Assembly (NCBI RefSeq): GCF_022458985.1
Contig: NC_061789.1
Coordinates: forward strand, 7,978,357-8,042,356
Length of the DNA: 64,000 bases
Direction of reading: 5' to 3'
Source of the DNA: Mugil cephalus
Taxonomy: Eukaryota > Chordata > Actinopteri > Mugiliformes > Mugilidae
The position numbers and the translations under genes were made by a program. The first letter of the stretch is position 1. Each line of letters opens with the position of its first letter. The notes under the pieces were generated by a model. The model worked only from the letters and a program-made list of their open reading frames with translations, searched no databases and was not told the origin of the DNA. Positions 3,540-64,000 of the stretch are shown here, piece by piece.

Positions 3540-6500
3540 CTAATCAGTTTTCTTCATGGCTCTCAGTTCATTATAGCGTTTCTTCACCATTTCTAGTTCA
3601 TCTGAAACATCTAAACAAAAAAATGGAATATCATTGATCTATAAATCTCATATTTACATTATTCTCATGGTTCTAAATTAAATATTTTCCTTTTACCTGG
3701 GATTGAGTGGTCATCTGTCTTCAGCGAGAGGTCAATTGATTCCCTCATAGTTGTCTCCAGTGTCTTCAAAATGTATTCCTAATTCAGCATCAAAATCTGT
3801 ATTAATTACCACTCATTAAAGAGCTAACTACTGGCTTCAGTCTTTATTAAACACACACATGAATTATCAGCTTAGCTCACAGTGTGAGAAAAAAAAACTA
3901 ATGTCTTCATAAACTTTTGTGTCTTTCTGACACTTAAATATAGAAAAAACTTTCATGTGAGCAGTGGATAAAGAGACATGTCTTACAAGCTCATTATATG
4001 ATCAAATGTGACAAACCTCCAGCTGCTTCAGCTGGTTCAACATAACATTTTTTGCCAGCTCCAACATGATGTTCTTTGAATGGTGTACATGGTTCTCTAT
4101 GGTCTCCTTTATGTTTTTCAGTGTGCCCTCGCCACTGAAACAAGCTGCTCCTAAAACAAAGTAGTTTCATGGCTTAATCTTTAAACTGGTTGCATATATG
4201 TATGAATATTACCTGGTGTGTTGCTAGGTAATTCCGATTGTCTTACTTTCATAGCACTCTTTCATGGTCGTCTCAATCGTATCCGTCAGGCTGCTGTAGA
4301 TGGTTTTCTTCTTGTTCCGAATGACTGATTTTAGCTTTGCCTTCAATTTATCTTCCTAAGAAAGATAAAATATTTTTTTAAATTTTATTTTTTACATTAC
4401 AATAGTATGCACATGCATAAGAAAATAAGGCTCATCCTTTTTATTATTATTTGTCATTTTGTTGTCATCTGTTGTGTGTGTTTAGCAGGTATATTCAGAT
4501 TTACCTGAAGAGGAAAGACTCGATTTTCCAGGAATACCTCAGTTTTAACTGACATAAAGTCTTGTACTGTAAATAACCAATGAACAGGTTGGTTCTAATG
4601 TTCATTCTTTACCTCTGTCTGCAGAAATATCAGCTGCAGCTCCACATCTTTGTACCTCTGAATCAGATCGCCTGTGTTGAGTGTGAACCTACTGATGACT
4701 CCGTTGAATGGTTCACATTTTCTGTCATTTCTGAAACATGTTGACATGTTTTAAAAATACAATATAATTTGATTACTGTAGAATTTATCTGTTCTGGACT
4801 TTTGGGTTCAACAAATAGTTTTATGTCCTTATTAAACAGTTCTTACGGAAAGGTTTTCTTGAATTTCTCATCAATGCTGTCAGTCAGGTGTGAAGACAAC
4901 TTCATGTTGAGATTTATTGGTGTCTTTTCCTTTGGTTTGTAGATGCCATTGTTCTGAACTACACATTTCAGTGTCCTGTGGAAACTATGGCTGACTTTTC
5001 TCTGAAACAAAACATTTTTTTTTTTTTTTTTTTTTTTTTTAATATTCACATCAATTCAAGAGAGACTTAATGTTTGTAATTCAAATACATACAGAAGTTA
5101 AGAAGGACTTCAGTTGTCTTTCACAAGAACTTTTGGATTTTTCAACACCTTCACTGAGGCATTTTTCAAAAGCCCTGTTAGTTTCTTCCATATTTATTCT
5201 GACTTGGTCAAGGTGATGGCTCATGTTTCCTTCAAGGTTTGCACACACATCTGTTCTGCTAGCCTGAAATCAAAACATTATTAACAACACATTAGTTAAG
5301 GCGATAAAACTACAAATGCTACTTATTCTCTATAAAGTATCTGTTGATTTGTTGAAAGAAAACATCTTTAAATTAACAAATATTACACCAAATAGTTGTT
5401 CCTACCTACTTCTACAAACTTTTCACAATAGTTTAAATGTAGCTCCACATACTGTAAATCTGATTTCCAATGTTTTCGTGTCACCTGATTGTTAAAACTA
5501 AAAACAGTAATGGCAGTGAAGACGGGAGCAGAGAAGGAACGTTGCTTTGATCTTACCCCTTCTCTACAGCGGGCTCCTTGAATCAAGGAGAGAATCCCAT
5601 AAGCTCCAGACACATAGTTTAAAGTCTCTGAGTGGCAGTCATTGAGATTTTGCAAAAACTCCTGAAGTTTTGGTATTTCTGTGAAAAATGATAAAACAAA
5701 ATAAATGGAGTTTTATGTTTGATCTATACATAGTATCTTAATGTATTGAGGGTTGACGTACCAGTCTCTACTGGCGTTAGATATTCTCCGTCTTGAAACT
5801 CACTGGAGCTCACTGTGAACACTTCAAAGCAGTTGTCTCTGAAGTGTTTCTGGGGTGATAGGTTTCAACTATAAGTCATGCTTGCAGTTGTAGGAATTCA
5901 TTTTGTTAGATATATAGATTACCTTAATCTTGTTTTGCTTGTTGAATTCACTCATCACTTTTTCTTTGGCTTCCTCGTTCCTCCTCAATATAAGAGCACG
6001 AACGTCAGCTGCTGAACTAGAAGAAAGTGATGGTGTCTCAAATACAACGTTGCATCTACAGTGCTGATAAAATTTAAACAACACATCTTTTGTTGAACTT
6101 CTACCCGTCAGCAGATCATCTAAAAGAATTATTTCTGCTATATAGTATAGTAGTATAGTAATGGCAAACCAATTCAATTTATTTCACAAAACACCAAAAA
6201 AAATTGTCTATGACTTGTGTTGTTTGTTAGCTGCTCAAGTATAGTGGACTTTAAAAGTTGTAATTCATTATAAATAAATAAAAATGAAACTTGAAATCAT
6301 CCATGAATAGTGACTCTGTTATTTATCTTTACTTTATATAAGCTGGGAAGACCTGTCCTGGTAATGGTTACAGACAAATCATTAAAGGCATTTTTGTTGA
6401 GGCCTTTTAGTGATGGGTGTAGCCATAAGAAATCAATGAAAGTCTAAACAGGGCTAATAAATACCACAAAGTGAGTCATAAATGTATAAATGTATTACAT

Positions 6501-62000: not shown

Positions 62001-64000
62001 ACCGACTGGTAGGGTTTGTCGAATATTTACATGTGCTTCTTTAAATAGCTACTCCTCCAAGTGCTAATCTAATGCTAATATTTGTCCAAACAATACCAGT
62101 TCCACGAGGGCATCAAACCAAGTGACATAACTATCACACGTTTCACACTTAGCGGCACTGAGCTCCTGCCTTTGTTTTCATAAAGCCTGCTCGCGTTACC
62201 CAAGCATGATGCCGAACAATGATTTACAGCGGCCGCGATTAAACAACCCGTATCATGCTCGGTCTTTTATCACTGGAGCGGAGATAATTCATGCAGTGGT
62301 AAATCATTAGAACTCAGAGATTATGACTGCAAAAAAAAAAAAAAGAGAGCGACACAACAACAACTCGCAGAAACTTCCTGTGTTCACTGCCTGACTTTCA
62401 GGAAAACGCATTCGAGTGTTTTACTGTCGTTTTAATTTGCCTACTAGAACAGAAGATTCAGTAGGCCTAATCCCACTTCAATTGCTTAGTGACACTTCAG
62501 CTCCTAACTGTGCATGCAGCTCACTTATCCGGCTCTTTAGGCTCATCCCACATCAACTGACACTTATATTTTACTTTTAAACAAGCAACTACCCAACCGG
62601 ATAATTTGTGCTGCTGTCAGTCCTTTTAATTCACCTGTTTTCACTGCACTTAAACCAGCTCATTATTTTCACATATCCTTTTCTTCTAGTTCAGCAGCTG
62701 ACATTCATGCTCTTATATTGAGGAGGAACGAGGAAGCCAAAGAAAAAGTGATGAGTAAATTCAACAAGCAAAACAAGATTAAGGTAATCTATATATCTAA
62801 CAAAATGAATTCCTACAACTGCTAGCATGACTTATAGTTGAAACCTATCACCCCAGAAACACTTCAGTGACAACTGCTTTGAAGTGTTCACGGTGAGCTC
62901 CAGTGAGTTTCCAGACGGAGAATATCTAACGCCAGTAGAGACTGGTACGTCAACCCTCAATACATTAAGATACTTTGTATAGATCAAACATGAAACTCCA
63001 TTTTTGTTTTATCATTTTTCACAGAAATACCAAAACTTCAGGAGTTTTTGCAAAATGTCAATGACTGCCACTCAGAGACTTTAAACTATGTGTCTGGAGC
63101 TTATGGGATTCTCTCCTTGATTCAAGGAGCCCGCTGTAGAGAAGGGGTAAGATCAAAGCAACGTTCCTTCTCTGCTTCCGTCTTCACTGCCATTACTGTT
63201 TTTAGTTTTAACAATCAGGTGACATGAAAACATGGGAAATCAGATTTACAGTATGTGGAGCTACATTTAAACTATTGTGAAAAGTTTGTAGAAGTAGGTA
63301 GGAACAACTATTTAGTGTAATATTTGTAATTTTAAAGATTTTTTCTGTCAACAAATCAACAGATACTTTATAGAGAATAAGCAGCATTTGTAGTTTTATC
63401 GCCTTAACTAGTGTGTTGTTAATAATGTTTTGATTTCAGGCTAGCAGAACAGATGTGTGTGCAAACCTTGAAGGAAACATGAGCCATCACCTTGACCAAG
63501 TCAGAATAAATATGGAAGAAACTAACAGGGCTTTTGAAAATTGCCTCAGTGAAGGTGTTGAAAAATCCAAAAGTTCTTGTGAAAGACAACTGAAGTCCTT
63601 CTTATCAGTATGTATTTGAATTACAAACATTAGGTCTCTCTTGAATTGATGTGAATATATATTTTGTAAAAAAAAAAAATATTTTTTTTCTCAGAGAAGA
63701 AGCGGGCGTGGTTTCCACAGGATACTGAAATGTGTAGTTCAAAACAATGGCATCTACAAACCAAAGGAAAAGGCACCAATAAATCTCAACATGAAGTTGT
63801 CTTCACACCTGACTGACAGCATTGATGAGAAATTCAAGAAAACCTTTCCGTAAGAACTGTTTAATAAGGACATAAAACTATTTGTTGTAAATTCTACAAT
63901 AATCAAATTATATTGTATTTTTAAAACATGTCAACATGTTTCAGAAATGACAGAGCATGTGAACCATTCAACGGAGTCATCAGTAGGTTCTCACTCAACA
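56048..64000 (+). CDS. Copy E: SAM-domain SLIP-GC-like GTPase, open, cut by window edge
   Basis: Exons: 56048-56114, 58470-58582, 59387-59411, 59527-59565, 59643-59758, 60386-60602, 60724-60996, 61177-61383, 61469-61644, 62690-62783, 62857-62944, 63025-63146, 63440-63607, 63695-63849, 63945-beyond 64000. Exons 1-2 encode a SAM-like domain ending GPRAIFKERLKLLK. The P-loop is GKSGAGKSS, G3 is DLPG, and G4 is TKSD in exon 61469-61644. The acidic exon has about 17 Asp. No stop or splice-site loss was seen. The 45- and 30-base linker exons of copies A-C are missing, but both are multiples of three, so frame is kept. The junction 59411/59527 is uncertain (an acceptor 7 bases downstream fits best). 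It is most similar to copy A, including introns, but has intact G3. The last four or five exons lie outside the window. Its head-to-head placement with copy D suggests an inversion. Confidence 0.8.
56160..58145. mobile_element. Candidate DNA transposon with matching inverted ends in copy E intron 1
   Basis: The left end AGACAGAAATAAAAAAGCGC and the reverse complement of the right end (AGACGGAAACAAAAAAGCGC) match with two differences. Intron sequence shared with the other copies stops just left of it. The interior is CpG-rich at 57300-57700 and holds the hAT-like segment at 56231-57303. No target duplication was identified. Confidence 0.5.
56231..57303. mobile_element. hAT-like element with CAGGCATGTC ends
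   Basis: The left end is CAGGCATGTCGAACTC, and the right end reversed is CAGGCATGTCAAACAT. It carries the GGGCCGGAT / CCGGCCCGCGGGCC blocks typical of a widespread hAT group. The 8 bases on either side do not match, so the target duplication is lost or an end was rearranged. No transposase was seen. Confidence 0.6.
57901..58242 (+). other. Unrecognised 113-codon open frame inside an intronic element
   Basis: A Lys/Ser-rich open frame with a cysteine pair (HTAPCTC) that runs through the right inverted end of the candidate transposon. I do not recognise it. The overlap with the element's end and the repeat-like surroundings argue against a host gene. Confidence 0.2.
58803..59036 (+). mobile_element. 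LINE reverse-transcriptase fragment in copy E intron
   Basis: Near 58955-59030 the plus strand encodes VRVGLHQGWPLSRVLFI, a decayed form of the LINE motif GLRQGCPLSPVLF. Upstream it is broken. It occupies the place where copies A-C have the two linker exons. Confidence 0.65.
59090..59290. repeat. ATTATGAG / TTACATTA repeat cluster
   Basis: TTACATTATGAG-like words recur in both orientations, resembling a small palindromic DNA element. Edges and class are not determined. Confidence 0.35.
60787..60853 (+). repeat. Trinucleotide repeat coding for poly-Asp in copy E
   Basis: GAT/GAC repeat in the acidic exon, homologous to 7550-7628 in copy A but lacking the Gly-Ala codons. Confidence 0.85.
61738..62660. 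other. Copy E-specific intron segment
   Basis: The intron between the G4 exon and the next exon matches copy A on both sides, but about 900 bases here have no counterpart. The segment contains a GCGGCCGC site and A-runs. It is probably an insertion, but I saw no ends or genes that identify it. Confidence 0.4.

Follow-up and report, generated by a model that had tools for sequence, protein, structure and literature searches.

A 64,000-nucleotide stretch of the genome of the fish Mugil cephalus (NCBI RefSeq assembly GCF_022458985.1, contig NC_061789.1, positions 7,978,357 to 8,042,356 of the forward strand; the whole stretch is hereafter called the window, and positions are counted from its first letter) raises the question of whether a SAM domain has been joined to a dynamin-type GTPase in a set of neighbouring duplicated genes, and what such genes might do. 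Positions 3540-64000 hold five related genes, here called copies A to E, and one remnant of a sixth; A to D lie on the minus strand and E lies on the plus strand. We lean, if only slightly, towards reading them as tandem members of a dynamin-type GTPase family that is of the SLIP-GC/NUGGC kind and assembles through its SAM domains. The array does not look like a wholly new system but like a family of genes, perhaps with immune roles, that is changing fast. Each gene is predicted to encode a SAM domain at the N-terminus, followed by a linker, a GTPase of the dynamin superfamily and a long C-terminal part.

The complete gene of the array is copy B (23102-15699, minus strand), in which 20 exons joined in phase give an 824-amino-acid open frame and a stop codon, with GT-AG borders at 19 of 19 introns; since GT-AG and phase guided the manual choice of splice sites, this agreement is partly built in. 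An open frame across 20 exons is nevertheless not easily obtained by chance. Exon 1 (23036-23102) contains the start codon and the first part of the SAM domain, 22 codons plus one nucleotide, and exon 2 (22626-22738) encodes the remaining SAM part and ends at the donor GTAATG. Exons 3-6 (21704-22489), also in phase, supply the linker and a pre-GTPase segment. The GTPase motifs follow in exon 7 (21374-21590; P-loop, or G1, GKTGTGKSS), exon 9 (20377-20577; G3, DLPGNGD) and exon 10 (19077-19252; G4, TKSD), and exons 11-20 (15699-17996) encode the remainder of the protein up to the stop codon. In all five copies, TTTCAG and 15 stop-free nucleotides precede the exon-1 ATG (e.g., 23103-23117), and the retention of TTTCAG suggests an upstream 5' exon, which was not located.

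The sequence-only reading had assigned exons 1-2 to a SAM fold by pattern recognition, and this call largely passes a profile search. These exons of copy B encode 60 amino acids, for which SAM_1 (PF00536) was the sole Pfam family reported (E 0.0027, 18.5 bits), and the corresponding peptides of A, C, and E matched the same family at E 0.019, 0.0005, and 0.00095, so that SAM_1 was found in four of the five copies, though always below the curated 23-bit cut-off (15.7-20.8 bits). Comparison with the sequences of solved structures points the same way. A phmmer search with the copy B peptide (E up to 10) returned 16 matches, 15 of them SAM proteins with Bicc1 the best (E 0.0069); a profile built from the family returned six, all SAM, again led by Bicc1 (E 5.4e-4); and the copy E peptide (E up to 1) returned two, both SAM. 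Some of the matched chains, such as those of Bicc1 and polyhomeotic, are taken here to be SAM domains. A chance origin of the match was considered and set aside, as none of six shuffled copy E peptides matched SAM_1, though two of the six matched other families (best E 0.025). Overall, we consider the predicted SAM assignment sound for copies A, B, C, and E.

The GTPase assignment was tested against the Dynamin_N profile (PF00350; cut-off 27 bits) in copies A, B, and E. It lies above the cut-off in B (E 3.1e-14, 53.8 bits), in the first 511 amino acids of A (E 6.6e-9, 36.4 bits) and in the first 463 amino acids of E (E 1.9e-13, 51.2 bits). The motifs G1 (GxxxxGKS), G3 (DxxG), and G4 ((T/N)KxD) are all present in B, D, and E, whereas A fails at G3 and C is frame-shifted between G1 and G3. 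A and E also gave a weak, sub-threshold match to IIGP in Pfam. When the GTPase and C-terminal part of copy B were compared with solved structures (E up to 10), 31 weak matches were obtained, the best to an ABC transporter (E 0.039); they include one IRG-type GTPase, and no dynamin is among them. A scan of viral contigs with a 352-amino-acid GTPase query found no relative.

Several observations weigh against the reading outlined above, in addition to the sub-threshold SAM_1 scores and the partly built-in splice agreement. The SAM peptide of copy D was unmatched by SAM_1 in the Pfam scan, and in the longer proteins the SAM_1 match weakens to E 0.15 in B and 0.037 in E and is unlisted for A. Because one shuffled peptide reached an unrelated family at E 0.025, the value of 0.019 for copy A says little by itself. 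On the GTPase side, MMR_HSR1 also clears its cut-off in A, B, and E, as does ABC_tran in A and E. Finally, intron identity between A and B, calculated over aligned columns, is not below their exon identity, and conservation of exons over introns, which we considered as a proof of coding, is therefore not seen for this pair.

The copies themselves were recognized by self-comparison of the window, which revealed long repeat blocks from about 3.5 to 64 kb; the exon chain was found by translating the open stretches of one repeat block and then comparing them with the window. The model of copy B was built by hand from flanking sequence, and those of A, C, D, E, and the remnant were obtained by projection and then refined. 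A pattern for exon 1, with at most one mismatch allowed, has four matches in the window, all exact, compared with a mean of 0.01 in shuffled sequence, and copy D holds a fifth exon 1 that is 24 nucleotides shorter. The P-loop pattern is matched at 7954, 21516, 32782, and 44502 on the minus strand and at 60447 on the plus strand; one more match, at 53202, is outside every exon found, and the chance expectation for this pattern is 2.33. The earlier claim of five or more copies in one cluster thus stands as five gene copies and a remnant, but they are not equivalent: B is complete, E shows no damage up to the window edge, and A, C, and D are altered or broken, each in a different way.

Copy A (11748-3540, minus strand; position 3540 is the final base of its stop codon) is open over 20 exons and 831 amino acids in the projected model, with SAM exons at 11748-11682 and 11295-11186. 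Its G3 motif reads DLSV instead of DLPG, and since the usual exon-4 acceptor is lost, the model takes an upstream AG. In copy C (34467-26998, minus strand), the SAM exons (34467-34401 and 34091-33979) are open and the GTPase is frame-shifted, exon 7 having lost one base and exon 8 having gained one; the exon-9 acceptor is also lost. Copy C is otherwise close to identical with copy B, which makes sequence errors in C possible. Copy E begins at 56048 on the plus strand and stays open over 14 exons and 630 amino acids until the window edge at 64000, inside exon 16. Its projected SAM exons lie at 56048-56114 and 58470-58582 and its GTPase exons at 60386-61644; exons 3-4 were not found in the window, and the frame is preserved without them. 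Within the GTPase region, exon 8 of A (7690-7406) and exon 8 of E (60724-60996) carry a long, nearly identical run of aspartates.

Copy D (50148-40356, minus strand) has a degraded SAM part, including the shortened exon 1, and its exon 5 is interrupted by an insert, family sequence returning about 4.2 kb further on. The bodies of exons 6-20 (40356-44813) are open and retain G1 (GRSGAGKSS), G3 (DLPG), and G4 (TKSD), and the entry phase of exon 6 is off by one base. The stretch between exons 5 and 6 (44900-49080, no strand assigned) has broken frames and contains a reverse transcriptase piece, matched by the Pfam family RVT_1 (E 3.8e-9) at 46849-47298. By its motifs the stretch is Penelope-like, and it may comprise more than one element. 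In Pfam, four overlapping retroelement pieces matched neither a reverse transcriptase nor GIY-YIG; only 46849-47298 matched RVT_1. The remnant of the sixth copy (37076-38188, minus strand) consists of exons 3, 4, 12, and 13 with a weak match to exon 11, and no SAM or P-loop exon was found in it.

How the copies differ bears on whether they are under constraint. In the SAM exons, the ratio of non-synonymous to synonymous change (Ka/Ks) is 0.17-0.47 in the six pairs among A, B, C, and E, and an excess of synonymous change is indicated in five of these pairs (one-sided Fisher p < 0.05; B-C, 0.096), with the qualification that the pairs share branches and the p values are uncorrected. The four pairs involving D range from 0.46 to 0.80, two of them with p < 0.05. 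Overall Ka/Ks is 0.41-0.77 in the 10 pairs. Exon 14, which lies beyond the GTPase domain, is a possible fast-evolving stretch, with Ka/Ks of at least 1 in 7 of 10 pairs; positive selection on it was considered and set aside, as among five pairs tested (two-sided Fisher, assuming 80:20 sites) only D-E fell below 0.05 (p 0.017, uncorrected). An origin of the five copies from a single gene repeated by the assembly was likewise set aside, as A and B differ at Ks 0.35. Similarity is unevenly distributed along the genes. Between B and C, exons 3, 5, 6, 9, 10, 11, and 16 are identical, and exons 1 and 2 match at 96 and 94%, respectively; between A and E, exon 8 has a Ks of only 0.02, but the SAM exons and exon 9 have 0.21 and 0.14, respectively. 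Such a patchwork of identity suggests gene conversion or unequal crossing-over. Since SAM exons are present, or were once present, in all five copies, the fusion is probably older than the array.

Given these unequal copies, one may ask whether the SAM and GTPase exons belong to one gene at all, and whether the array still functions. Exons 1-2 could be a separate small SAM-only gene, with the GTPase exons transcribed on their own, and two copies fit such an arrangement: C could yield a product of SAM and linker only, and in D the GTPase part is open but lacks a usable link to the SAM exons. However, the GT donor of exon 2 is retained in five of five copies, introns 2-6 of copy B are short (136, 114, 325, 72, and 113 nucleotides), its junctions are phase-compatible, with exons 3, 4, and 5 divisible by three in length, and the frame of copy E survives the absence of exons 3-4. 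The retained donor, compatible phases and short introns argue for one gene, and we regard two separate genes as very unlikely. The joining of exons 1-2 to the GTPase exons, which the sequence-only reading had reported, is thus supported by conserved splice donors and compatible phases, as far as genomic sequence can indicate. A broader doubt is that the array arose by local duplication, is now decaying and does little today, with one or two of its genes still working and several others reduced to pseudogenes. The two frameshifts and lost acceptor of C, the degraded SAM part of D cut off by an insert, the changed G3 motif of A, the sixth copy reduced to a remnant and the high overall Ka/Ks would all be expected from decay. 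Yet the frame stays open through 20 exons in B and through 14 up to the window edge in E, the bodies of exons 6-20 are open in D, and the SAM exons of A, B, C, and E have fewer non-synonymous changes than expected in five of six pairs; we therefore consider general decay rather unlikely, if clearly more plausible than two separate genes.

If the fusion is expressed, the next question is what the SAM domain contributes. Head-to-tail SAM polymers typically have an acidic middle and a basic end helix. Net charge before the LI motif is −7 in B, −7 in A, −10 in C, and −5 in E, and net charge after it, in the end helix, is +6, +6, +6, and +3, respectively, compared with −2 and +4 in copy D; this measure was made without a control set of SAM domains, which also counts against leaning on it. 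In the reading that we favor, the SAM domains of A, B, C, and E would stack onto further SAM domains in head-to-tail fashion, drawing the GTPase units together, and the binding and hydrolysis of GTP could then power the assembly of the dynamin-type body and its release. The array would duplicate, swap sequence and shed parts as immune GTPase families do, and the likeliest role would be that of an induced host-defense or lymphocyte GTPase related to SLIP-GC/NUGGC. The array GTPases may thus form oligomers and may have an immune role. The same charge polarity is also compatible with binding to other SAM proteins. Instead of polymerizing, the domain might dock the GTPase, either to RNA or to a different SAM protein, and so act less as a device for assembly than as an address tag. 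The sequence neighbors of exons 1-2 include the SAM domains of Bicc1, ANKS proteins, CNK2, and neurabin, several of which bind partner SAM domains or RNA. Docking is a possible though doubtful alternative, to which we give somewhat more weight than to decay. It is improbable, but conceivable, that the array forms a modular filament system, in which SAM nucleates a polymer, a target is wrapped or remodeled by the GTPase bodies, and the copies tune each other as natural part-variants. B and E would then, on the same slender expectation, contribute both parts, A a SAM domain with a changed GTPase, C perhaps only SAM and linker, and D perhaps a GTPase without SAM; interferon control and restriction to fish would be possible additions to such a system.

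Regulation offers a further lead for the array. The regions upstream of the copies share a block that has further occurrences at 480-1300, 35.4-35.9 kb (35400-35900), and 38.4-38.7 kb (38420-38740), which appear as extra promoter-like blocks that no whole gene follows within the window; no recognizable family exon accompanies the block at 480-1300 (minus strand) within positions 1-3500. Matches to GAAANNGAAAC, which resembles an interferon-stimulated response element (ISRE), number 13 in the window compared with a mean of 1.15 in shuffled sequence, and 9 of the 13 lie inside the aligned upstream blocks or no more than about 20 bases from them. As these blocks are homologous, the 13 sites are not independent events. 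The strongest ISRE-like form is aligned in three blocks: as GAAACAGAAAC at 943-953, inside the block at 480-1300; at 35660-35670; and as GAAACCGAAAC at 50785-50795 (minus strand), upstream of copy D. Copies A, B, and E have this site in degraded form, and in C it is not aligned; it is intact in a block beside the remnant, in the damaged copy D, and in a further block, whose gene, if there is one, would lie beyond the window; like the shared ancestry of the blocks, this speaks against an induced family. A second ISRE-like form occurs at copy B (23353-23363) and copy E (55556-55566). Interferon control of the array, as judged from these motifs, is a lead and not a result.

Elsewhere in the window, Rfam and tRNA scans were empty, and the open stretches at 53878-54309 (minus strand) and 10430-10738 (plus strand) had no Pfam match.

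If the fusion is transcribed, a second assembly device would have been added to a dynamin-type GTPase, and the natural variants in the array (both parts, SAM with a changed GTPase, SAM only, and GTPase only) would let the role of each part be asked. SLIP-GC-like genes also recur in fish expression and copy-number studies, as far as the passages of these papers indicate. Salmon families with high breeding values for resistance to an alphavirus (pancreas disease) showed higher expression of a set of genes that includes SLIP-GC (PMC6972705, PMC7316828), and SLIP-GC-like transcripts are named in seabream larvae (PMC11252595) and eel (PMC4229938). NUGGC is described as multicopy in Cottus, with five to seven copies in most parental individuals, and as tandem in stickleback (PMC5638112); the array here is likewise multicopy and tandem. 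The passages of these five papers do not mention a SAM domain, and we make no claim that the fusion is unpublished; a further paper names both NUGGC and a SAM domain, once each (PMC8074411).

Among known systems, the presumed nearest relative is SLIP-GC/NUGGC itself, although the Pfam and solved-structure searches returned no NUGGC family or sequence; SLIP-GC identity, fish-specificity, and immune function of the array are best treated as leads. The mammalian protein is likewise a dynamin-type GTPase of about 800 amino acids, with similar surroundings of the P-loop and G3, but to our knowledge it is not described as having a SAM domain. The SAM domains of Bicc1, ANKS3/4B/6, polyhomeotic, and others are the closest solved sequences to exons 1-2, whereas those proteins are not known to carry a dynamin-type GTPase. 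The interferon-induced IRG/IIGP, GBP, Mx, and GVIN GTPases also form immune GTPase arrays, but they are GTPases of other types and are not known to have a SAM domain. With the dynamin superfamily as a whole, the array genes share the Dynamin_N domain, above the cut-off in A, B, and E, and they differ from it in adding a predicted SAM domain at the N-terminus.

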